Assembly (NCBI RefSeq): GCF_001368915.1
Contig: NZ_CSTE01000003.1
Span: forward strand, 186,001 to 250,000
Source of the DNA: Haloferax massiliensis
GTDB lineage: Archaea > Halobacteriota > Halobacteria > Halobacteriales > Haloferacaceae
Length of the DNA stretch: 64,000 bases
Direction of reading: 5' to 3'
Shown: piece after piece, positions 42,978-55,730 of the stretch
How positions within the stretch are numbered: position 1 is the first letter of the stretch
Layout: the number at the start of each line of letters is the position of its first letter
Position numbers and translations under genes: made by a program
The notes under the pieces: model-generated
What the model saw: only the letters and a program-made list of their open reading frames with translations
What the model was told of the DNA's origin: nothing
The model's database searches: none

Positions 42978-45900
42978 TCAGTCGTCGCCGCGTGCGGCGC
43001 TGCCAGCGCCCGCGTCCGGAGTCCGCAGCACGTCCGGGTCGGCGTCCGGTCCGAGCGGTTCGACGCGCACGCTCGACACCTTGTACTCCGGAATGCCGGC
43101 CTGCGGGTCGAACGTCTCCTGCGTGAGTTTGTTGACCGCGCCGGCCGCGAAATGCATCGGGATGAACAGCGTCCCGTCGCCGACGCGGTCGGTCACCGTC
43201 GCCTTGACGACGATGTCGCCGCGGCGGGACTCGACCTTGACGTACTCGCCGTCTGAAACGCCGAGTTCCGCGGCCGTCGTCGGGTTAATCTCGATGAAAC
43301 TCTCGCCGACGTGGCTCATGAGACCCTCGACGCGCCGGGTTATCTGTCCGGTGTGCCAGTGGTAGAGGACCCGCCCGGACGTGAGCGTGAGGGGGTACTC
43401 CTCGTCGGGGAGTTCGCCGGGGTGGCCGCCGTCCGCCGGCACGAAGCGGGCGAGTCCGTCGTCGAAGTTGAAGTTCCCCTCCTCGTAGTCGTAGAGGTAC
43501 GGCGTGCCGGGGTGGTCGTCGTCCCAGCACGGCCACTGGAGTCCGTGCTCGTCGCCCGATTCGAGACGCTCGTAACTGACGCCCCCATAGATGGGAACTA
43601 GGTCGCTGATCTCATCCATGACCTCTCGCGGGTGGTCGTAGCCCCACTCGTAGCCCAGTCTGGCCGCCAGTTCCTGCGTAATCTCCCAGTCCTGACGCGC
43701 CTTCCCGGGCGGTTCCGCGGACGCTCGAACCCGCTGGACACGACGCTCGGTGTTGGTGAAGGTGCCGTGTTTCTCCGGCGAAGTCGCCGCCGGCAGCACC
43801 ACGTCGGCGTGCTCCGCGGTCTCCGTCATGAAGATGTCCTGTACGACGAGGAAGTCCAAGCTATCGAGCGCCTCGCCGGCGTGCTGGATGTCGGGTTCCG
43901 AGAGCGCGGGGTTCTCCCCGACGATGTACATCCCGCGGAGATTGCCCTCGTGGGCTTCGGCGAGCATCTCCGGCACTTTGAGACCGGGTTCCGTCGGTGG
44001 ACGCTCGCCCCACACCTCGGCGAACTTCTCGCCGACCTCGTCGTCGGCCGGGTCCTGGTATCCGGGGAGACTGCCGGGCAGAGTCCCCATGTCGCCGCCG
44101 CCGCCCTGCACGTTGTTCTGGCCCCGGAAGGGCGACAGTCCGGCACCCGGTTTCCCGACCTGCCCGAGCGTGAGCGCGAGGTCGGCCATCGCGAGGAGGT
44201 TCTCCGTGCCGTGGCTGGATTGGGTCATGCCCATCGCCCAGCCGAAGACGACGTTCTCGGCGGCGGCGAGCGTCTCGGCGGCCGACTGCAGTTCGGCGGG
44301 AGAGACGCCGGCCAGTTCCTCGACTTTCTCGGGGGTGAACGCCTGGACCTTCTGCTTGACCGCTTCGAATCCGTTCGTATTCCGTTCGATGAACGCCTCG
44401 TCGTGCAGGTCGTGCTCGATGAGGTATCGGATGAGGCCGTTGAGCCACGCCACGTCGTAACCGGGCGTCGTTCTCGTGTACTGGTCTGCGTGTTCGGCGA
44501 TGCCGATTTTCCGGGGGTCGAACACCACGAGGTCGGCCCCGTCGCGGACGTTCTGCTTGATGCGGGTCGCCAACACCGGATGCGACTCGGTCGTGTTCGA
44601 CCCGCTTATGAGGTAGGCGTCGGCCTCGCCGATGTCCTCGTTGATGCGGTTCGTCATCGCGCCGTAGCCGAGCGTCTGTTGGAGCGCCGCCACCGTCGAC
44701 GAGTGGCAGAGCCGGGCGCAGTTGTCGATGTTCTTCGTGCCGAGCACCTGCCGCGCGAACTTCTGGACGAGGTACGCCTCCTCGTTGCTCCCTTTCGACG
44801 ATGCGAGGCAACTGACCGCGTCGACGCCGTGTTCGTCCTGAATCTCGCGGAGTTCGCCGGCGACGTAGTCGAGCGCCTCGTCCCACGACGCCGCCTCGAA
44901 CTCGCCGTCGTCGTTTCGAATCAGTGGTCTCGTGAGCCGGTTTTCGCTGTTGGCGAACTCGTGTCCGAACTTCCCTTTCACGCACGTCGAGAAGTTGTTG
45001 GCCGGTGCGTTGTCCGGGTCGTCGACGGGCTGGACGCCGAGGGCGTTCCCGTCTTTGCCCCACATCTCGAACCGACAGCCGACCGCGCAGAACCCGCAGG
45101 TCGTCTCCGCTTTGTCGACCTTGCCCAGTCGGTAGTCGCTGACGAGCGACGCGACGTCGAACAGCCGGCCCTCGGAGAGGGTCCGCGCCGCAAGGTTCTC
45201 GGCGGTGTGTTCGCCCGCGAGCATGGCCTTCCGACCGTACTCCCCGAGGAAGTCGGACGCTCGGCGTTTGCTCTGGGCCATGTATCGGGCGACGCCGCTC
45301 CGTCCATCCTGTCCCGCCTCGGCTTCGCCACCGGCGCTCCCCGCGCTACCGGGGGCGGGCGAGCGGTTCGGTGCCGTCGTGTCGTCGATGGTCTCCGCCT
45401 CCTCGTGTTCGATGACGTTCCCGACGGAGTTCCGCTGCGTGAACCCCGGGAGCGGGAGCGTCCCCGCGCCACCGATGTCCTTCTCGGTCAGGGCTCCGGT
45501 CGGACAGACCGTGGCGCAGTGACCGCAGGAGACGCAGTCTGAATCCCCCATCGTCTCGGCGTCGGACTGGAAACCGATGCGGGTGTCCGCACCGGACCCC
45601 TCGATACGGAGCACGCCTTCGACCTGAACGTCGTTACAGCCCTCGACGCACCGGTTACAGAGGATGCACTTGTTGCGGTCGATTTGGATGAACGAGGAGC
45701 TGTCGTCGAGCGGTTCGTACTCGCTTCGCTCGTCGAACACGCCGTAGCGCGGATGGTCGACCCCCTCGCTGATGGCCGTCTCCTGGAGCTCGCACCGGCC
45801 GTTCCCGTTACAGGTCGTACAGCGCAGATTGTGGTTGGAGAGGACGAGGTCGAGGTTGACGCTCCGGCACTCCTCGGCGGCCGACGTATCGGTCTCGACC

Positions 45901-46304
45901 GTCAGCCCGTCCGTCGCCGGGAACGAACAGGAGGGGACGACCCCGTGTTCGTCCGTCTCGACCATGCAGGTTCGACACTCGCTCCGAGGGCCGATTTCGT
46001 CGCTCGCGTCGCCGTCGCGGTCGTAATAACAGAGCGCCGGAACGTCGGCGTCTCCGTCGAGGCTGTCGGAGCCGGGGTCCACGCTCACGACCTCGTCGTC
46101 GACGGCCTGCATGGCGTCGATGACGGTCGACCCCGGCGGGACGGTGACCGGGGTCCCGTTGACGGTGACCGTCGTCGGGCTCTCTCCGCCGGTTCCGACG
46201 GGCGGGTCGTTCGCGGTCCCGGTCTCGAACTCAGCCGTGACCGACGTCTCGTGCTGTGGGTCGTCTATCTCCGGAACGCCCGGAAGTGGGTCGTCAGTAC
46301 TCAT
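42978..46304 (-). CDS. fdhA: Formate dehydrogenase alpha subunit (molybdopterin, multi-Fe-S)
   Basis: 1108 residues. In order: 2Fe-2S ferredoxin-like domain (C92, C110, C113, C126), a His/Cys 4Fe-4S domain (H158, C162, C165, C171), two 4Fe-4S motifs (C213/216/219/223 and C257/260/263/267), a linker of about 130 residues, then the molybdopterin catalytic domain with CGFCAVGCRFEMWG...STC (4Fe-4S) and NCARLCHSSTVAALQQTLG, whose Cys is the likely Mo/W ligand. It matches NAD-linked-type FdhF/FdsA proteins that oxidise formate to CO2; no Tat signal, so cytoplasmic. Its start overlaps the end of the NuoF-like gene by 4 nt (ATGA). Confidence 0.9.
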   Translation of the reverse strand: MSTDDPLPGVPEIDDPQHETSVTAEFETGTANDPPVGTGGESPTTVTVNGTPVTVPPGSTVIDAMQAVDDEVVSVDPGSDSLDGDADVPALCYYDRDGDASDEIGPRSECRTCMVETDEHGVVPSCSFPATDGLTVETDTSAAEECRSVNLDLVLSNHNLRCTTCNGNGRCELQETAISEGVDHPRYGVFDERSEYEPLDDSSSFIQIDRNKCILCNRCVEGCNDVQVEGVLRIEGSGADTRIGFQSDAETMGDSDCVSCGHCATVCPTGALTEKDIGGAGTLPLPGFTQRNSVGNVIEHEEAETIDDTTAPNRSPAPGSAGSAGGEAEAGQDGRSGVARYMAQSKRRASDFLGEYGRKAMLAGEHTAENLAARTLSEGRLFDVASLVSDYRLGKVDKAETTCGFCAVGCRFEMWGKDGNALGVQPVDDPDNAPANNFSTCVKGKFGHEFANSENRLTRPLIRNDDGEFEAASWDEALDYVAGELREIQDEHGVDAVSCLASSKGSNEEAYLVQKFARQVLGTKNIDNCARLCHSSTVAALQQTLGYGAMTNRINEDIGEADAYLISGSNTTESHPVLATRIKQNVRDGADLVVFDPRKIGIAEHADQYTRTTPGYDVAWLNGLIRYLIEHDLHDEAFIERNTNGFEAVKQKVQAFTPEKVEELAGVSPAELQSAAETLAAAENVVFGWAMGMTQSSHGTENLLAMADLALTLGQVGKPGAGLSPFRGQNNVQGGGGDMGTLPGSLPGYQDPADDEVGEKFAEVWGERPPTEPGLKVPEMLAEAHEGNLRGMYIVGENPALSEPDIQHAGEALDSLDFLVVQDIFMTETAEHADVVLPAATSPEKHGTFTNTERRVQRVRASAEPPGKARQDWEITQELAARLGYEWGYDHPREVMDEISDLVPIYGGVSYERLESGDEHGLQWPCWDDDHPGTPYLYDYEEGNFNFDDGLARFVPADGGHPGELPDEEYPLTLTSGRVLYHWHTGQITRRVEGLMSHVGESFIEINPTTAAELGVSDGEYVKVESRRGDIVVKATVTDRVGDGTLFIPMHFAAGAVNKLTQETFDPQAGIPEYKVSSVRVEPLGPDADPDVLRTPDAGAGSAARGDD

Positions 46305-47821
46305 AGTTTGTCAGTACAGGTTCCGCTGGGACAGCGGCCGTCGGCGTGTGCTTCGAAACTCGATTCGAACTCGTCCATCGCGGTCAGCACCGGTCGCGGC
46401 GCACGAGCCCCGATTCGGCAGTTGCTCGACCGGGCCATGACCCGCCCGAGTTCGCGTATCTTCTCCCGGTCGTACGAGCCCCGGTAGACCGCTCGCACCA
46501 GTTCGGTGAGTTGGACGGTTCCCTCCCGACCCGGCACGCACCGCCCGCTGTTGGCTTCCGAGGCGAAGTTCGCTCGTTGACCGGCGGTGGCGACCGGACA
46601 CCGCTCGTCGTTCAACAGTTCGACGACGCCGTCCGTGCCGAGGCCGGCCGCGGTCAGTTCGTCCGCGGTCGGTGTGATATCCAACGTCCGAGTGACCCCG
46701 CCAAAGACACCGCCGACGCAGGCCATCTTGAACGAGCCCTCCAGTTCGACGGCGTTCCGAACCGCCGAGAGGCGGGCGTCCGACCCGACCTCTATCGTCG
46801 CGGGCGCGGCCACGTCCCCGGTGACAGTCAACAGTCGCGTCGCCGAGGCGGACCCGTCCTCATCGGTACTCTCGGGACCCGAGAGTGCGTGGTGTACCTG
46901 TGCGAACGTCCGCGGCGAATGGATGACCGTGGGGCGACCGAAGAGTCCGTACTCGGCCGGCGATGGTGGCTGGAGACGGGGTTCGATTCGGTCCGCACCC
47001 TCAATCGCTTCCAGCGCCGCCGTCGGTGCGCCGGCGCGGTACTCGTCCGGCCCCGTGGCGACTCTCGGAACGACCGGTAGTTCGTCCGCGGCGGCGTCGA
47101 CGGCCCGCCGGAGGTGTTCTCGGAGTTCGGTGTCGGTCTCCGCGAGATAGATGACCGCGTCGGTCGTCCCGAGGTACTCGGCGACGGCCGCCACGCCGTC
47201 GAGCACCGACATCGGCGACCCGGCGAGGAGCGTTTCGTCCGCCCACTGCCTGTCGTCCGCGTCGTTCGCGTTCACGACGACCACCGGGTCGCCGTCTGTC
47301 TCTCGCGCGCGCCGCCACGCGTCGGCGACCGGGTCGTCAGCGCTGGCGTCGCCCCTTCCTCGACCGACGAGGCCGGCGTCCGCGATAGCACCCGCGTCTT
47401 TGTCGAGCGACTGGAACTGACACCCCTCCGGGTCCAGCGGGTCGACCCACCCGCAGGGACCGAGGACGCGCCGCCGACCTACCGCGAGCGGCCCGTTCGT
47501 CGGCACCGGTAGCGTCGTCGTCTCGGCGTCGTGCTCGACGACCGCCGCGGCACCGTCCGTCGGTAACGCCCCGTCTTCCACGTCGGCGACGATTTCCCGG
47601 GCTCTCGGTGCGTCCGGAGCCGGGAAGAACGCGGTCCGCCCCGCTCTGGTCGCCAGAACCAGCGGGTCGTACTCGCTGATTCCGGTCGGTCCCGTTCGCA
47701 GGACCGGGACGGAGTCGGCGGCGGCGCGCGCGCTGCTCAAGACACGCTCCCCGCGCTCCGTTCGTCCGGCTCCCGAAACCCGGACGGTCGGCGACGGGGT
47801 CGCCTTGCCTGTGCGATTCAT
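46301..47821 (-). CDS. NuoF/FdsB-like subunit with degenerate FMN and Fe-S sites
   Basis: 506 residues, homologous to the FMN/4Fe-4S subunit of complex I and NAD-linked formate dehydrogenases: EPRLQPPSPAEYGLFGRPTVIHSPRTFAQVHHAL is the well-kept region (residues approx. 290-325). But GLRGRGGAGFPTG is GLVGRGRGDASAD, the NADEGEPGTFKDR motif is NANDADDRQWADE, and the Cys cluster SCGKCxPCREG reads NSGRCVPGREG, so two of four cluster cysteines are gone. NAD reduction by the usual mechanism is doubtful. It is the first gene of the operon with fdhA. The ATG at 47821 follows a TATA-like TTTTTTAAC element about 28 nt upstream. Confidence 0.82.
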   Translation of the reverse strand: MNRTGKATPSPTVRVSGAGRTERGERVLSSARAAADSVPVLRTGPTGISEYDPLVLATRAGRTAFFPAPDAPRAREIVADVEDGALPTDGAAAVVEHDAETTTLPVPTNGPLAVGRRRVLGPCGWVDPLDPEGCQFQSLDKDAGAIADAGLVGRGRGDASADDPVADAWRRARETDGDPVVVVNANDADDRQWADETLLAGSPMSVLDGVAAVAEYLGTTDAVIYLAETDTELREHLRRAVDAAADELPVVPRVATGPDEYRAGAPTAALEAIEGADRIEPRLQPPSPAEYGLFGRPTVIHSPRTFAQVHHALSGPESTDEDGSASATRLLTVTGDVAAPATIEVGSDARLSAVRNAVELEGSFKMACVGGVFGGVTRTLDITPTADELTAAGLGTDGVVELLNDERCPVATAGQRANFASEANSGRCVPGREGTVQLTELVRAVYRGSYDREKIRELGRVMARSSNCRIGARAPRPVLTAMDEFESSFEAHADGRCPSGTCTDKL

Positions 47822-48022
47822 TCTCACGGTTAAAAAGACGCGGTGGGGTTAAAAAATCATCCCAATCCGGTCCCGGTGGCGCGCGGTTTCGGGGCGTTCA
47901 ATCCCCCGGACTCGAAGCCGGTCCAACCGCGATTGGCACGAGATTGCCACGGCAGATGGCGCTCCCAGACGGCAGCGACCGGAGCAAAGAGCTAATGCGG
48001 CGACGCGTTGTTCCCCGAGGTG

Positions 48023-48784: not shown

Positions 48785-49094
48785 AGCCGGCCGTTTCGAA
48801 CGGGCCGTATTAAATCCACGTCCGGGACGAACCGGTCTCACGATATGTGTGCCATCTGCCATTCCGTGGCGTCACTCGGCTTGCACGTCGGCTACTCCTC
48901 GTCTCGAACTTCGGAGCCTCGCGGGTGTCTCGGCCCTGCCGACACCCACGCAGAAAACACGAATAGTAACGAACATGACACGATGAAACACCCACCAACG
49001 ATATTTAAGCGTTGAAGTGCCGAGAACCGTGAAAGACATTCGCACCCGATCTATAAATGGCATCCGTCCGCAGAGACCGAGCGGAGCCCGAACA
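48785..49094. other. Intergenic region with two TATA-like elements
   Basis: About 310 bases, divergent promoters of ridA and the formaldehyde-dehydrogenase-type gene. GATATTTAAGC (about 48999-49009) and CTATAAATG (about 49050-49058) are both plausible rightward TATA boxes; the latter fits a near-leaderless transcript from about 49080. No gene seen. Confidence 0.5.
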
Positions 49095-50258
49095 ATGTCA
49101 ATGGACGCAGTCGTCTACAAAGGCGAACGAGAGGTCGCAGTCGAAGCGGTCGAAGAGCCGCAGATTGAACATCCGAACGACGTCGTTATCGACATCACGA
49201 CGACCTGCATCTGCGGGTCCGACCTGCACATGTACGAGGGTCGGACGGCGGCGGAACCGGGAATCGTGTTCGGCCACGAGAACATGGGTATCGTCGAGGA
49301 GGTCGGCGAGGCCGTCAGCGGCCTCGAAGTCGGCGACCGCGTCGTCGCGCCGTTCAACGTCGCCTGCGGCTTCTGCGAGAACTGTGAGAACGGCTACACC
49401 GGCTTCTGTACCAACGTCAATCCGGGATTCGCCGGGGGAGCGTACGGCTACGTCGCCATGGGGCCGTATCAGGGGGGTCAGGCCGAGAAGCTCCGCATTC
49501 CGTACGCCGATTTCAACGCGCTCAAACTGCCGGACGGACGGGAGCACGAGGACTCGTTCTCGCTCCTCGCGGACATCTTCCCGACGGGCTGGCACGGCAC
49601 GGAACTCGCCAATCTCGAATCCGGTGACTCCGTCGCTATCTACGGGGCCGGTCCGGTCGGCCTGATGGCCGCCTACAGCGCCAAGCTCAAGGGCGCGGCC
49701 GAGATTTACGTCGTCGACCGCGTCCCCAGTCGCCTCGCGCTCGCCGAGGAACACTGCGACGCCACGCCCATCAACTTCGAGGAGGGCGACCCCGTCGAAC
49801 AGATCAAAGAGATTCACGGCGGCGGCGTCGACAAGGGCGTCGACGCGGTGGGCTATCAGGCCATCGACCCCGACAAGGAAGCCGACAGCGCGTACGACCC
49901 CGCCCGGGAGAACCCGGCCGTCGTCATCAACAACCTCATTCGGACGGTCCGTCCGACCGGCGAACTCGGTATCCCGGGTCTCTACGTCCCCGACGACCCC
50001 GGCGCTCCCGACGAGATGGCTGCGCAGGGACGTCTCGGCATCGACTTCGGTCTCCTGTTCGAGAAAGGGCAGGCGCTCGGTACCGGCCAGTGTAACGTCA
50101 AGGAGTACAACCGAAAGCTCCGAGACATGATAATCGAGGGCCGAGCCGACCCGAGTTGGGTCGTTTCCCACCGCGTCGACCTCGAAGACGCGCCCGAGAT
50201 GTACGAGAAGTTCGACAACCGCGAGGAGGGCGTCACGAAGGTCCTGCTGGAACCCTAA
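49095..50258 (+). CDS. Zn alcohol dehydrogenase, glutathione-independent formaldehyde dehydrogenase type
   Basis: 387 residues. Catalytic zinc residues in TTCICGSDLHMYEGR and FGHENMG, a complete structural zinc loop ACGFCENCENGYTGFC, Rossmann motif VAIYGAGPVGLMAAY, and the long loop between the domains (DKGVDAVGYQAIDPDKEADS) that marks the PdhA/Fdh-type MDR branch. It oxidises formaldehyde or another aldehyde/alcohol with NAD. Formate dehydrogenase genes lie about 1.3 kb to the left, so a formaldehyde-to-CO2 route is plausible. Start at MSMDAVVYKG; MDAVV six nt later is equally possible. Confidence 0.87.
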   Translation: MSMDAVVYKGEREVAVEAVEEPQIEHPNDVVIDITTTCICGSDLHMYEGRTAAEPGIVFGHENMGIVEEVGEAVSGLEVGDRVVAPFNVACGFCENCENGYTGFCTNVNPGFAGGAYGYVAMGPYQGGQAEKLRIPYADFNALKLPDGREHEDSFSLLADIFPTGWHGTELANLESGDSVAIYGAGPVGLMAAYSAKLKGAAEIYVVDRVPSRLALAEEHCDATPINFEEGDPVEQIKEIHGGGVDKGVDAVGYQAIDPDKEADSAYDPARENPAVVINNLIRTVRPTGELGIPGLYVPDDPGAPDEMAAQGRLGIDFGLLFEKGQALGTGQCNVKEYNRKLRDMIIEGRADPSWVVSHRVDLEDAPEMYEKFDNREEGVTKVLLEP

Positions 50259-50489: not shown

Positions 50490-51623
50490 TCAGGCGGACT
50501 CCCGGGGGAACGGGTCGTCGGGATACGACGCCGCCCGCTCGTCCGTCGTCGCTAGACACTCGTCGAGTTCTCCGCTCAGTGCCGCCTCGTCGAGGTCGCG
50601 GCCGATGAACACGAGTCGCGTTTCGGGGTCATCGTCTCCCCACTGACCGATGGGGCCGGCCTGTACCGACGGCCCCGCCTGACTCACGCCGAGCACCGTC
50701 TCGGGACGACTCGCGACCCACGCGAACCCCTTCGCGCGGACGACGTTCCCCCGCCAGTCGTCGAGCCAGTCATCGAGTCGGTGCGGATGGAACGGGCGGT
50801 CCCGCCGGTAGACGAAGGACTCGACGCCGTGGGCCGTCGCCGCCGAGACGTCCTCGTCGTGGGCGCGTCCGCTGTCGCGGCCGTGGTCGTGGTTGCCGTT
50901 CGCCTCGCCATCGTCGCCCGTGAGCGCGCGTTTCCAGCCTTGGTGGTGTTTCGCAGCGTCGAAATCGAACCGTCCCGTATCGAGAACTCGCCCCGACTCG
51001 ACTCCGCTGTGTGTCGTCCGGTGGATGGTCGCACGGGGCTGGAGTTCTCGAATCTCGGCTTCGACGGCGTCCAGCGCGTCGTCGGGGACCATGTCGCACT
51101 TGTTCAGCAACAGCACGTCACAGAACTCGACCTGCTCGACGAGAACCTCCGTCAACGGACGCTCCGGGTCGGGGGCGGCGTCCGGGAGCGATTCCGCCGG
51201 GTCGAACGCCTTCCAAAACCCGTAGGCGTCGATGACCGAGACCGTGGTGTCCAACCGGAACTGCTCCGGCAGACCGCCCTCCTCCGACTCGCGCGTCAGC
51301 ACCCGCGCAATCGGGAGCGGTTCGCTGATTCCGGAGGCCTCGATGAGAAGGTAGTCGAACGAACGCATTTCGGCCAACCGCGTCACTTCGGTCACGAGGT
51401 CGTCCTGCAATCGGCAGCAGATACAGCCGTTCGAGAGGTCGATTAGCCCGTCGTCCGCCTCGGAGGCGACTAACTCGGCGTCGACGTTCAGTTCGCCCAT
51501 GTCGTTGACGACGACGGCTATCTCCCTCCCGCCGGGGTCGTTCAGGAGTCGATTGACCAACGTCGTTTTGCCCGCGCCGAGGGGCCCGCTGATGACCGTA
51601 ATCGGAGTTTCAGCCGTGGACAT
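50490..51623 (-). CDS. CobW/G3E-family GTPase (metal chaperone type)
   Basis: 377 residues. Walker A GPLGAGKTT (residues 13-21), metal-binding CxCC motif in LSNGCICCRLQDDLV, switch segment LIEASGISEPLP, base-recognition NKCDMV, a histidine/acidic-rich loop (HDHGRDSGRAHDED) and the C-terminal CobW domain with FHPHRLDDWL and KGFAWVASRPE. G3E GTPases insert or store Zn, Co or Ni. It lies between a zinc dehydrogenase and an AOR-family gene; its metal is unknown. The start MSTAETPIT gives the normal N-terminus; an upstream in-frame ATG at 51737 would add 38 residues without homology. Confidence 0.88.
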   Translation of the reverse strand: MSTAETPITVISGPLGAGKTTLVNRLLNDPGGREIAVVVNDMGELNVDAELVASEADDGLIDLSNGCICCRLQDDLVTEVTRLAEMRSFDYLLIEASGISEPLPIARVLTRESEEGGLPEQFRLDTTVSVIDAYGFWKAFDPAESLPDAAPDPERPLTEVLVEQVEFCDVLLLNKCDMVPDDALDAVEAEIRELQPRATIHRTTHSGVESGRVLDTGRFDFDAAKHHQGWKRALTGDDGEANGNHDHGRDSGRAHDEDVSAATAHGVESFVYRRDRPFHPHRLDDWLDDWRGNVVRAKGFAWVASRPETVLGVSQAGPSVQAGPIGQWGDDDPETRLVFIGRDLDEAALSGELDECLATTDERAASYPDDPFPRESA

Positions 51624-51892
51624 GTCGATGCTGTGTGTCGACTCGCGGGTGGCTGTAATCAATGCTGGGTCGCCTCGCTCGACCCGAGTGTAGAACCCCT
51701 CACACCGGACCTCCGTTCGAAACTCGTCTTCTTCCATTACTGATAGGTCGGGTTTCGTGGCTGTTCGCGTCGGTCGACCCCCGCGAATCGAACTCTCGGC
51801 GTTGTTGGACACGTTCGCGCCACCGAACCCGCTCGCCCGCCGTGGCACACCGGCATCATCTTTTTTGCTCGCCGGTCCTGACGGATGATCTG

Positions 51893-53647
51893 ATGGTCCC
51901 CCCCGTCCCCGACCGACTCCTCACGGTCGACCTGTCTTCCGGTTCGGTCGAGAGTACGCCGATTCCGGACGAGTGGCGACAGCGGTACCTTGGCGGAAAA
52001 GGGCTGGGCGCCCGCTATCTCTACGACGAACTCGACGCCGGCGTGGACCCGCTGGGTGACGAAAACGCGCTTCTATTTATGCTCGGCCCGCTGTCGGGGT
52101 ATCTCCCGGGCGAGTCGAGATACGCCGCTATCACGAAATCCCCGCTCACGGGCTGTTTTCTCGATTCCTATGCGGGCGGCGAGTTCCCCGACTCGCTGGC
52201 CGGCGCGCTCGGGCCACATATGGGTCTGCTCGTGACGGGTGTCGCGTCCGACCCCGTCACCCTCGTCATCGAAGGCGGGGACGCCACGATTGCTCCTGCC
52301 GAGACGTGGGGGGCCGACACGGTCGAAACGGCGCGAGCGTTCCCCGACGCGTCGGTCGCGTGCATCGGCCCGGCGGGAGAACACCATATCGCCTACGCCA
52401 CTATCGCCTCGGACGAAGGCGAGCACCACGCTGGTCGAGGGGGCGCGGGAGCGGTCATGGGTTCGAAGCGACTGAAGGCGGTCGTCGCGCGGGGAGAGCC
52501 ACCCGAGGGGTTCGACGACCTTCGGGAGGCCTACGCCGCGAAGTACCGAGAGACCGCCACCGGACGCTGGCTCCGGGCCAGTGGAACCGTCGAGACCATC
52601 GATTTCGCGAACGAAATCGGCGCGCTCTCGACGCGAGGCTGGCGCGATGGACACCTCGAACAGACGGACGAACTGGGAATCACTGCGGTCGAAGACAGCG
52701 CCGTCGGTCGCGAGTACGCCGACACGGCGGCTCCGGGGGGATTTCGCGTACCGACGGACGAGGGCGACCACGTGCCGCGGGGCGCCACCGCGATGACGCT
52801 CGGGGCCGGACTCGACATCCACGACTTCGACGCCGTCGCCGAGTTGGGACAGACCTGTGACCGGCTCGGGATGGACCTCATCAGCGCCGGCAGCGCGGTC
52901 GCGTGGACCATCAACGCCGACGCCGCCGGCGTCCTCGACCGTCCACTGTCGTTCGGTGACGCCGACGGAGCGCGCGCCCTCTTACGGGAAATCGCCAACC
53001 GGACGACGGACCTCGGCGACGCGCTCGCGGACGGGGTCGATGCCGCGGCGTCGCGGTACGGCGGGAGAGAGCTCGTCCCCACGGTCAAGTCGATGGAGCT
53101 ACCGGCCTACGACCCGCGCGGCGCGCAGAGCATGGCGCTGGCGTACGCGACCAGCGACCGCGGGGCCTGCCATCGACGGGCGCGACCCATCGAACGCGAG
53201 GCGTTCGACGGAGAGTGGGGAGCCGACCGGACCGCGGAGGCGGTCGTTCGCGAGCAGGACCGGCGGTCGGTACTCTGGAGTCTCATCGCCGACGACTTTT
53301 TCGGCGACGCGCTCGACGACCTCGGGCGAGCGTGGCTCGAATCGGTCGGTCTCGAACCCGCCGGGGAACTCGCCACGGTCGGTGAACGGATTTGGAACGT
53401 GACGCGCCTGTTCAACGTCCGTGAGGGAATCTCGCGCGCTGACGACGCATTGCCGGCCACGCTCCAAGAGCCGCTTGAGAGGGGCCCGCGCGCCGGTGCA
53501 GTCGTCGACCGCGACGACTTCGACTCGATGCTCGACGCGTACTACAGCCGCCGCGGCTGGGCCACCGATGGCGTGCCGACGGCGCAGACCATCGACCGCC
53601 TCGACCTCACCGAACTCGCCGCCGACCTGCACGCGCTCCGCGATTGA
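51893..53647 (+). CDS. Aldehyde ferredoxin oxidoreductase (AOR)-family protein without cluster cysteines
   Basis: 584 residues, near the usual 600. Pterin-cofactor motifs are kept: YLGGKGLGARYLYDE, MLGPLSGYLPGESRY, SPLTGCFLDSYAGGEFP, IGPAGEHHIAYATI, GRGGAGAVMGSKRLKAVV and YATSDRGACHRRA. But the place of the CxxCxxxC cluster motif reads VGREYADTAAPGG, with no cysteine, and the fourth ligand site (DxxGxC) is SLIADDFF. So the 4Fe-4S cluster next to the tungstopterin seems absent. Family enzymes oxidise aldehydes to acids with ferredoxin. Neighbours (CobW GTPase, YqeC, MobA) support a metal-cofactor setting. Confidence 0.85.
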   Translation: MVPPVPDRLLTVDLSSGSVESTPIPDEWRQRYLGGKGLGARYLYDELDAGVDPLGDENALLFMLGPLSGYLPGESRYAAITKSPLTGCFLDSYAGGEFPDSLAGALGPHMGLLVTGVASDPVTLVIEGGDATIAPAETWGADTVETARAFPDASVACIGPAGEHHIAYATIASDEGEHHAGRGGAGAVMGSKRLKAVVARGEPPEGFDDLREAYAAKYRETATGRWLRASGTVETIDFANEIGALSTRGWRDGHLEQTDELGITAVEDSAVGREYADTAAPGGFRVPTDEGDHVPRGATAMTLGAGLDIHDFDAVAELGQTCDRLGMDLISAGSAVAWTINADAAGVLDRPLSFGDADGARALLREIANRTTDLGDALADGVDAAASRYGGRELVPTVKSMELPAYDPRGAQSMALAYATSDRGACHRRARPIEREAFDGEWGADRTAEAVVREQDRRSVLWSLIADDFFGDALDDLGRAWLESVGLEPAGELATVGERIWNVTRLFNVREGISRADDALPATLQEPLERGPRAGAVVDRDDFDSMLDAYYSRRGWATDGVPTAQTIDRLDLTELAADLHALRD

Positions 53648-53775: not shown

Positions 53776-54507
53776 ATGAAGCTTCGTGATGCGCTCTGCG
53801 CTCGAAGCGGCGTGATCTGCGTCGTCGGCGCGGGCGGGAAGAAATCCACGCTGTACGCGTTGGCGCGTCAACTCGACCGCGCCGTCGTGACGGCGACGGT
53901 TCGCATCCCAATCTTCGACCAGCACGTCGACGACGTGCTCGTGACCGACGCTCCGGTCGCCGCGCTCCAGCGCGTGACGGACTGGCCGGTGGGCGTCGTC
54001 CCCGACCGCGACCGCGACGACCGCTACCGGGGGTACGACCCCGACGTGGTCGACGACATCGGGGCATCCGACGCCGCCGACGCCGTGCTCGTGAAGGCCG
54101 ACGGCGCTCGGATGCGCGAATTCAAAGCACCGGGCGACCGCGAACCTCAGCTCCCGGCGACTGCCGACACCGTCCTCCCAATCGCCAGCGTCCACGCGGT
54201 CGGTGAACCGCTCGCTGACGATACCGTTCACCGCCCCGAACGGGTCGCCGCCCTCACCGGTCTCGACCCCGGCGACACGATTCGCCCGTCTGACGTCGCA
54301 ACGGTCCTCACGAGCGAGCGCGGCGGCCTCGCGGACGTCCCCGACGGCGCGACGGTGATTCCCGTGCTGAACAAAGTCGACGATTCGGCGCTCGAAGCGG
54401 TCGCGCGAGAGGTTGCTTCGGACATCCTCGCTCGGTCCGACGTTCCGCGCGTCGCTCTGACGCGGTTGACGGCGTCCGATCCCGTCGTGGCCACCGTGGA
54501 GCGCTAG
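53776..54507 (+). CDS. YqeC-like accessory protein for molybdenum/selenium enzymes
   Basis: 243 residues. Walker-like VVGAGGKKSTL (residues 16-26), then VLVKADGARMREFKAP corresponding to the EADGSR motif, and VIPVLNKVDD near the end, as in YqeC, an accessory protein of molybdenum hydroxylases with a putative selenium cofactor. Its exact role is unsettled. A TATA-like ACTTTAATC (about 53745-53753) about 28 nt upstream supports the ATG at 53776. Its stop overlaps that of mobA by 4 nt (convergent). Confidence 0.8.
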   Translation: MKLRDALCARSGVICVVGAGGKKSTLYALARQLDRAVVTATVRIPIFDQHVDDVLVTDAPVAALQRVTDWPVGVVPDRDRDDRYRGYDPDVVDDIGASDAADAVLVKADGARMREFKAPGDREPQLPATADTVLPIASVHAVGEPLADDTVHRPERVAALTGLDPGDTIRPSDVATVLTSERGGLADVPDGATVIPVLNKVDDSALEAVAREVASDILARSDVPRVALTRLTASDPVVATVER

Positions 54508-55115
54508 CCCAACCGTTCCGCCGCGTGGGCGAACTCTTCGGGGGTGTTGATGTTCTCGAAGGTGTCGAGGCTCGCGTGCTCGCACACCTCGTCCTCCCCG
54601 AGGACGACGTAGTCAAGCGCGAACAGCGGCTCGATGATTTTGTGGTTCCCCTCGGCCAGCGCGAGTTCGCACGCGTCGGCCATCGCCGAGGCTCGGTACA
54701 CCGCGTGAGTCGGTTGGAACCAGCCGTCACCGACCCGCGGCACGGCGGCGTCGCGGCCGGCCGCCCGGTCGAACAGCCGGTCGATGAGCACGGGTTCGAG
54801 AAAGGGCATGTCGCAGGCGGCGACGAACGCGTACTCCGTCTCCACGGCCCGCAGGCCCGTCATGATTCCCGCCATCGGTCCCTCGTCACACTCCGCGTCT
54901 TCCGCAACCGTCACCGGGTGGTCGTAGCCGTCGAGCGCGGTTCGGAGTGCAGCGGTCTGTTCCGGTCGGCAGTTGACGACGAGGGTGTCGATTACGCCGG
55001 CCATCCGGTCGGCGACGCGGCGGATGAGGGGAGTCCCCGCGAGCGATGCGACCGCCTTGTCCCCCTCGCCGAACCGCGTCGAGTATCCCCCGGCGATGAT
55101 GACTCCAGTTCGCAT
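54504..55115 (-). CDS. mobA: Molybdenum cofactor guanylyltransferase (MobA type)
   Basis: 203 residues. Nucleotidyltransferase signature GVIIAGGYSTRFGEGDKAVASLAG, metal-binding AACDMPFLEP, EGPMAGIMTGLRAV, and NINTPEEFAHA at the C-terminus. It attaches GMP (or transfers another nucleotide) to molybdopterin, as needed for bis-MGD enzymes such as the formate dehydrogenase at 42978-46304. The ATG at 55115 is the family start; earlier residues in the frame lack homology. Confidence 0.87.
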   Translation of the reverse strand: MRTGVIIAGGYSTRFGEGDKAVASLAGTPLIRRVADRMAGVIDTLVVNCRPEQTAALRTALDGYDHPVTVAEDAECDEGPMAGIMTGLRAVETEYAFVAACDMPFLEPVLIDRLFDRAAGRDAAVPRVGDGWFQPTHAVYRASAMADACELALAEGNHKIIEPLFALDYVVLGEDEVCEHASLDTFENINTPEEFAHAAERLG

Positions 55116-55730
55116 ACCGGGGTCCACTCTCTCGCTCTCCAAAGCAGTTGTGCTCCGAGCAGTTGTGCTCCGACCCGTGTCGCCCGGCGGTCGACGACGC
55201 CGCCGGACTTCGCGCGTTTCCCGTTTTTCCGAGGCATCCCATCCCCCGAGTTCGGGCCGTGAAAGCGGTCGAGAACGCATCACAGTCATGACACGGCTAG
55301 CCCTGTTATCCAATTTTCAATCCGATTAAAACTAACGCGGCACCCTGAGACGAAGAAACGTCGCGTGGACCGGCGTAACGCGTGGTGTGCCGAGCCGCGT
55401 CTCTGGATACGTCTCGATGTTTCGGAGACTATCTAGGATGCTAGCGGGACACCTGAAGCGACCGGTTCGCCAGTCGGTGACGACGAGTACAACACCCGAC
55501 AACTACGCTGACGGCTGTCGATACCACTCGGCGTCGTCGTCGTGGACGCGGTCACGTGATGCTTCGACGAGTGAGTTTCGTATCTTACACGAAATCGAAA
55601 TTGACATATTCGATATCTTTCTATCTAACGAGACTATCCGACATCAAACCATCTCCCGTCAGAGATATCGACAGTCAGTAATCACTGAGTATATCGCAAT
55701 CAAACTACTTATATGATTATCTGATAACTG
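55116..55730. other. Intergenic stretch with a short tandem duplication and AT-rich tract
   Basis: About 615 bases. A 15-bp unit (AGCAGTTGTGCTCCG) occurs twice in tandem at 55143-55157 and 55158-55172, just upstream of mobA. The part 55560-55730 is strongly AT-rich for this genome and includes CTTATATGATTATC shortly before the sulfatase remnant. No gene seen; possibly a site of past recombination. Confidence 0.45.

Follow-up and report, generated by a model that had tools for sequence, protein, structure and literature searches.

A cysteine-less relative of tungsten aldehyde oxidoreductases is inherited with formate dehydrogenases and YqeC in haloarchaea and may handle their cofactor

What is the role of a protein of the aldehyde ferredoxin oxidoreductase (AOR) family that has lost the ligands of its 4Fe-4S cluster? 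This question is raised by one gene in a stretch of 64,000 nucleotides of Haloferax massiliensis, which was analysed as a whole and is referred to here as the window. A classification from 2026 that covers over 4,000 AOR-family members takes a large subunit bearing a single 4Fe-4S cluster as the mark of its simplest class, and the available part of this source mentions no cluster-less clade (PMC13328260). The gene is placed as follows.

51893..53647, plus strand: Cys-less AOR-family gene, stop included; unbroken 584-aa translation; orthologs share the same Met start region

In this study, we found by Pfam profile search that AFOR_N (PF02730, 3.6e-61) and AFOR_C (PF01314, 8.6e-89) cover the full 584-aa product. 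With scores far above the cut-offs, the protein belongs by its domains to the AOR/WOR family, and the closest solved structures are canonical tungsten AORs at ~33% identity. An AlphaFold2 model (pLDDT 94.7) was compared with 1AOR, and 565 residues were matched at 1.9 A (Z 49). The Cys-less protein is thus predicted to keep an intact AOR fold. The same genome has two further AOR-family genes, L001 and L003, each with all four cluster cysteines. The solved H. volcanii enzyme WOR83 corresponds to L001 and not to the Cys-less gene. Since L001 and L003 are canonical, the product of 51893-53647 is a third, deviant paralog.

Residues of canonical enzymes are numbered as in P. furiosus AOR. This reference agreed with the homology alignment, and C288, C291, C295, C494, E313 and H448 fell on the right letters. 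Alignment of the window protein to it gave the following replacement.

52703..52741, plus strand: V271-G283, VGREYADTAAPGG, in place of Cys288-x2-Cys291-x3-Cys295

In the same alignment, the Cys494 position was Asp467 of the window protein. An earlier note on this DNA had claimed that all four cluster cysteines are absent, and this was borne out across the clade. None of 88 aligned full or near-full clade members had Cys at 288, 291, 295 or 494, whereas all four were present in 42/42 non-clade AORs, among them bacterial and archaeal proteins of ~34-40% identity, placed in one alignment with 47 of the clade members. The 88 consisted of 41 full-length orthologs, taken from plasmid records and from the window's family, and 47 members from an all-species search, with a few genomes in both; a partial member (L124) was without the 494 region. 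The absence of cysteines is far beyond chance. In a tree built with the Cys columns left out, the Cys-less rows formed one clade with an SH-aLRT of 100, and one change was needed. The note had proposed checking whether a whole clade is without the cysteines; this is so, through a single loss at the base of the haloarchaeal clade, in an ancestral haloarchaeon. Clade members span Haloferacaceae, Natrialbaceae, Haloarculaceae, Halobacteriaceae, Haladaptataceae and other haloarchaeal families, and none of the best 80 loci gave a Cys-less member outside the haloarchaeal class.

The full-length homology to AOR would fit an ordinary AOR whose cluster ligands have been displaced, or a decaying pseudogene, and we consider both very improbable. 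The note had named a Cys set elsewhere in the chain as the case against its claim, and no new conserved set was found in the clade alignment. The remaining conserved cysteines were C157, C322 and C426, of which C322 and C426 are family-wide positions also present in canonical AORs; the three are not replacement cluster ligands. Between orthologs, dN/dS was about 0.2 (~0.18-0.23; dN 0.07-0.20, dS 0.39-0.85), and 55-60% identity is kept across many haloarchaeal families. The gene is therefore under purifying selection and not decaying, and a pseudogene was rejected on this ratio together with the conservation. In-frame stops in the AOR paralogs of one genus proved to be ordinary C-terminal stop codons.

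The nearest proteins in the tree were those of a Cys-bearing haloarchaeal sister clade (Natrialba magadii pNMAG01 and others), 43-48% identical to the Cys-less protein. The two clades have N93Y, R182H and the loss of D489 in common. Unlike the Cys-less clade, the sister clade keeps all four cysteines and Tyr312-Glu313.

The following segments of the window protein bear on the metal site and the pterin motifs; statements on pocket residues rest on alignment positions.

52775..52786, plus strand: P295-A298, PRGA instead of PEYE (Glu311-Tyr312-Glu313), with R296 and G297 constant throughout the clade
52859..52876, plus strand: D323-D328, DRLGMD, the kept first pterin motif (D338xxGxD343)
53162..53179, plus strand: G424-R429, GACHRR, with the kept His448 equivalent (H427) and the clade-specific R428
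53276..53296, plus strand: W462-D468, WSLIADD instead of D489SAGLC494, with W462 and D467 constant throughout the clade

Glu313 was replaced by Ala, Gly or Ser throughout the clade and retained in all non-clade relatives, Glu311-Tyr312 were lost too, and R296-G297 were found in 46/46 clade members. The AOR active-site set Thr243/Glu313/Tyr427/His448 comes from the available part of the 2026 classification, according to which Glu313 is conserved in aldehyde-oxidising members (PMC13328260); three of the four residues were kept. The loss of Glu313 had been overlooked in the earlier note. It strengthens the note's view, supported by the residues, that the usual way out for electrons has been lost. 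The clade kept Thr243, Tyr427 (Phe in two members), His448, D343 and usually D338, and the GRGG segment is also common with AORs. The second pterin motif, D489xxGLC494, was replaced by WSLVADD-like segments across the clade. The claim that the pterin motifs are kept therefore held for the first motif (DRLGMD) and failed for the second (WSLIAD in the window protein). D489 varies in Cys-bearing relatives as well, so its loss is not specific to the clade. Asn93, which binds Mg in P. furiosus AOR, is Tyr in the Cys-less protein and in several Cys-bearing relatives. Because the second motif and Asn93 are both changed, the protein may not bind two pterins, with the proviso that both also vary in the Cys-bearing relatives.

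With the tungsten AOR/WOR enzymes (P. furiosus AOR, 1AOR; A. mobile WOR1, 9MQX; H. volcanii WOR83, 9Q1T) the Cys-less protein has in common the two Pfam domains, ~33% identity, the same predicted fold (Z ~50), Thr243, Tyr427, His448 and the D338 motif. It differs from them in being without the cluster cysteines, Glu313 and the second pterin motif. It may still be an enzyme, namely a cluster-free W/Mo-pterin protein in the one-carbon pathway of formate dehydrogenase (FDH), which would either carry out a non-redox reaction (formation of formate by hydration or hydrolysis) or pass its electrons to another acceptor, for instance a flavin or quinone. The kept first pterin motif and equivalents of His448, Tyr427 and Thr243 speak for such an enzyme, as do new invariant charged residues (R296, R428 and D467) at the old active-site and cluster positions; the loss throughout the clade of Glu313 argues against it. 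Catalysis of this kind seems unlikely on balance, but it is a serious alternative, since the His, Tyr and Thr of the metal site persist and conserved Arg and Asp residues have newly appeared.

The neighbours of the gene in the window are as follows.

42978..46304, minus strand: FDH alpha of 1108 aa with NuoG-like N-terminal domains (type A) and Cys-His at the metal (NCARLCHSS)
46301..47827, minus strand: NuoF-like partner subunit of FDH
50490..51848, minus strand: CobW/ZigA-like GTPase metallochaperone, divergent neighbour, adjoining the gene mainly within the same genus
53776..54507, plus strand: YqeC (TIGR03172, 4.4e-52), the gene directly downstream, same strand, after 128 bases
54504..55313, minus strand: MobA-like nucleotidyltransferase (PF12804), convergent; true start uncertain

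The window FDH (alpha and NuoF-like subunits) is of the NAD type and lies upstream of the Cys-less gene. A zinc dehydrogenase beside the FDH genes (window 49017-50258) resembles glutathione-independent formaldehyde dehydrogenase (TIGR02819, 345 bits, below the cut-off). Among 41 clade neighbourhoods of up to ~18 kb, FDH alpha was present in 26 and MobA in 12. A second set of 53 loci, many of them belonging to other families, had YqeC in 20, MobA in 14 and FDH in 26, with YqeC or FDH in 39. Not one of the 8 Cys-bearing comparison loci had YqeC, MobA or FDH in its flanks, and the flanks examined in the sister clade likewise had no homologue of the three, unlike the Cys-less loci. Antisense ORFs in this G+C-rich DNA gave false clusters in the neighbourhood comparison. 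In annotated plasmid records, formate-THF ligase, serine hydroxymethyltransferase, betaine transport and demethylation genes, and formamidase were located near some copies, and these neighbours fit a one-carbon setting. Their occurrence in several genomes would also suit the enzymatic alternative. On the other hand, the clade neighbourhoods share no partner redox subunit, and no single metabolic gene is tied to the Cys-less gene as strongly as the cofactor genes YqeC and MobA are.

The distribution of the gene was examined in 148 genomes of the window's family, drawn evenly with one genome per species, and 104 of them carried it. FDH alpha genes were assigned to type C (stand-alone, ~712 aa, 68-100% identical to one query) or type A (NuoG-fused, at least 65% identical to the window's FDH alpha). 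All 75 of the 75 genomes with type C had the Cys-less gene, as did 27/30 with type A, the exceptions being G052, G093 and G113. Overall, the gene was present in 100/103 genomes with type A or C and in 4/45 with neither (p 3e-28, phi 0.89). Since genomes are not independent data points, the comparison was also made within genera. In 9 of 10 genera with both states the gene went with FDH types A/C, one genus was a tie, and none showed the opposite. As a control, the canonical AOR of these genomes gave a phi of 0.64; within genera, 4 went the same way and 6 were ties. The Cys-less gene thus tracked FDH types A/C better than the canonical AOR in both directions. A side effect of molybdoenzyme-rich genomes was rejected as the cause, because the canonical AOR is clearly less correlated (phi 0.64 vs 0.89). 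No FDH lay within 20 kb of 60/101 Cys-less copies, so the match is not only one of physical linkage or of a travelling cassette. YqeC was present in 103/104 carriers, the lone exception being a genome 79% complete, compared with 15/44 non-carriers (p 1e-18), and it lay within 1.5 kb of 49/105 Cys-less copies. Co-occurrence alone does not separate a maturation factor from a metabolic partner.

That the gene is strictly co-inherited with FDH types A and C, and that the redox centre and Glu313 are lost, would also fit a non-catalytic partner of FDH. Such a protein would act as an accessory subunit, a stabiliser or a sensor that binds FDH or the cofactor pool, with no transfer of cofactor. We regard this as quite improbable. 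The gene is mostly unlinked to FDH, which is unusual for a subunit, and a single subunit common to the NuoG-fused type A and the stand-alone type C is less likely because the two differ in architecture.

A link to every FDH was rejected, as types B and N do not follow the Cys-less gene. Both are found in genomes that have no Cys-less protein, and some of the genomes with type N have no YqeC; FDH can therefore be matured without the Cys-less protein. In the window's genome, a second YqeC stands directly beside a second FDH, of type B (G000:C2:1193623-1196324), and this pairing is also seen in congeneric species without the Cys-less AOR.

FDH requires a sulfido ligand, and in bacteria FdhD provides this ligand and delivers the cofactor. 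In its known setting YqeC acts in chalcogen-ligand maturation, and MobA adds GMP. In M. extorquens, FdhD is essential for the activity and metal content of FDH, and its deletion abolishes both (PMC13197769; see also PMC12140954 and PMC6239281). A search for FdhD (PF02634) gave 0/148 family genomes and 0/194 class genomes (65 genera), with control organisms detected. In 59 relatives searched even at E<=1, with working controls, no FdhD was above the cut-off. FDH alpha genes are common in haloarchaeal genomes without detectable FdhD. We found nothing in the open-access literature on Cys-less AORs or on a missing FdhD in haloarchaea.

YqeC is known from selenium-dependent molybdenum hydroxylases, where it occurs alongside YqeB and SelD (PMC2276186). 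The haloarchaeal loci have YqeC in common with this maturation set, of which the AOR relative is not a member. YqeB was detected in 1/148 family genomes and SelD over the cut-off in 1/148, and carriers were without YqeB and true SelD except for G039. This setting was therefore rejected for the YqeC of carriers, which must serve something else; its constant company is the Cys-less gene and FDH. A C. difficile mutant deleted for yqeC showed no clear phenotype (PMC11448449). G039 has a classical SelD-YqeB-YqeC set (G039:C1:2520639-2523534, the L082 region), distinct from its other YqeC.

The reading that we tentatively prefer, at slightly less than an even chance, is that a retired AOR scaffold has come to work with YqeC in handling the Mo/W-pterin cofactor of FDH types A and C. 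A former tungsten aldehyde oxidoreductase, whose cluster and catalytic Glu disappeared a single time in an ancestral haloarchaeon, would have been retained as a partner of these two FDH types. Its fold may still serve as a cradle for the Mo/W-pterin, holding the cofactor or a late precursor while YqeC (chalcogen ligand) and MobA (GMP) act on it, and the cofactor would then be passed to FDH. From gene content and residues, we infer that the protein binds the pterin cofactor, hands it on and contacts FDH, YqeC or MobA. FDH carries bis-MGD and AOR binds bis-MPT, so the Cys-less site would need a precursor or an adaptation. Because haloarchaea are without FdhD, the protein may help to build or load the FDH cofactor, and so take over some of the work that falls to FdhD in other organisms. 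This proposed role resembles that of the FDH-specific cofactor chaperones FdhD and FdsC, and the gene goes with FDH; the likeness is a claim about how the protein works, since it has no FdhD-NarQ domain (PF02634) and matches the two AOR families only. That the Cys-less protein and YqeC replace FdhD in both loading and sulfurating the Mo/W cofactor of haloarchaeal FDHs is possible, though somewhat doubtful. FDH types B and N and the three type A genomes without the gene stand against a strict form of this claim, and an obligate replacement for every haloarchaeal FDH is not supported, because types B and N exist without the Cys-less protein. The earlier note had left a choice between a non-redox enzyme, another acceptor and a cofactor carrier; gene content favours FDH-linked cofactor handling, and catalysis in the same pathway is possible too.

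These results describe a large, old and conserved AOR clade that dropped its cluster, otherwise standard to the family, together with the catalytic Glu, and became firmly linked to FDH. Haloarchaea have many FDHs and no detectable FdhD, and the AOR relative with YqeC is a directly testable candidate for cofactor sulfuration or loading. The pair occurs in Haloferax, a genetically tractable host. At some loci (L040:12202-14394 and similar), a protein with FlpD and many 4Fe-4S domains, an FDH homologue and a DUF7124 protein lie directly downstream of the Cys-less gene, and these are possibly a further FDH type.
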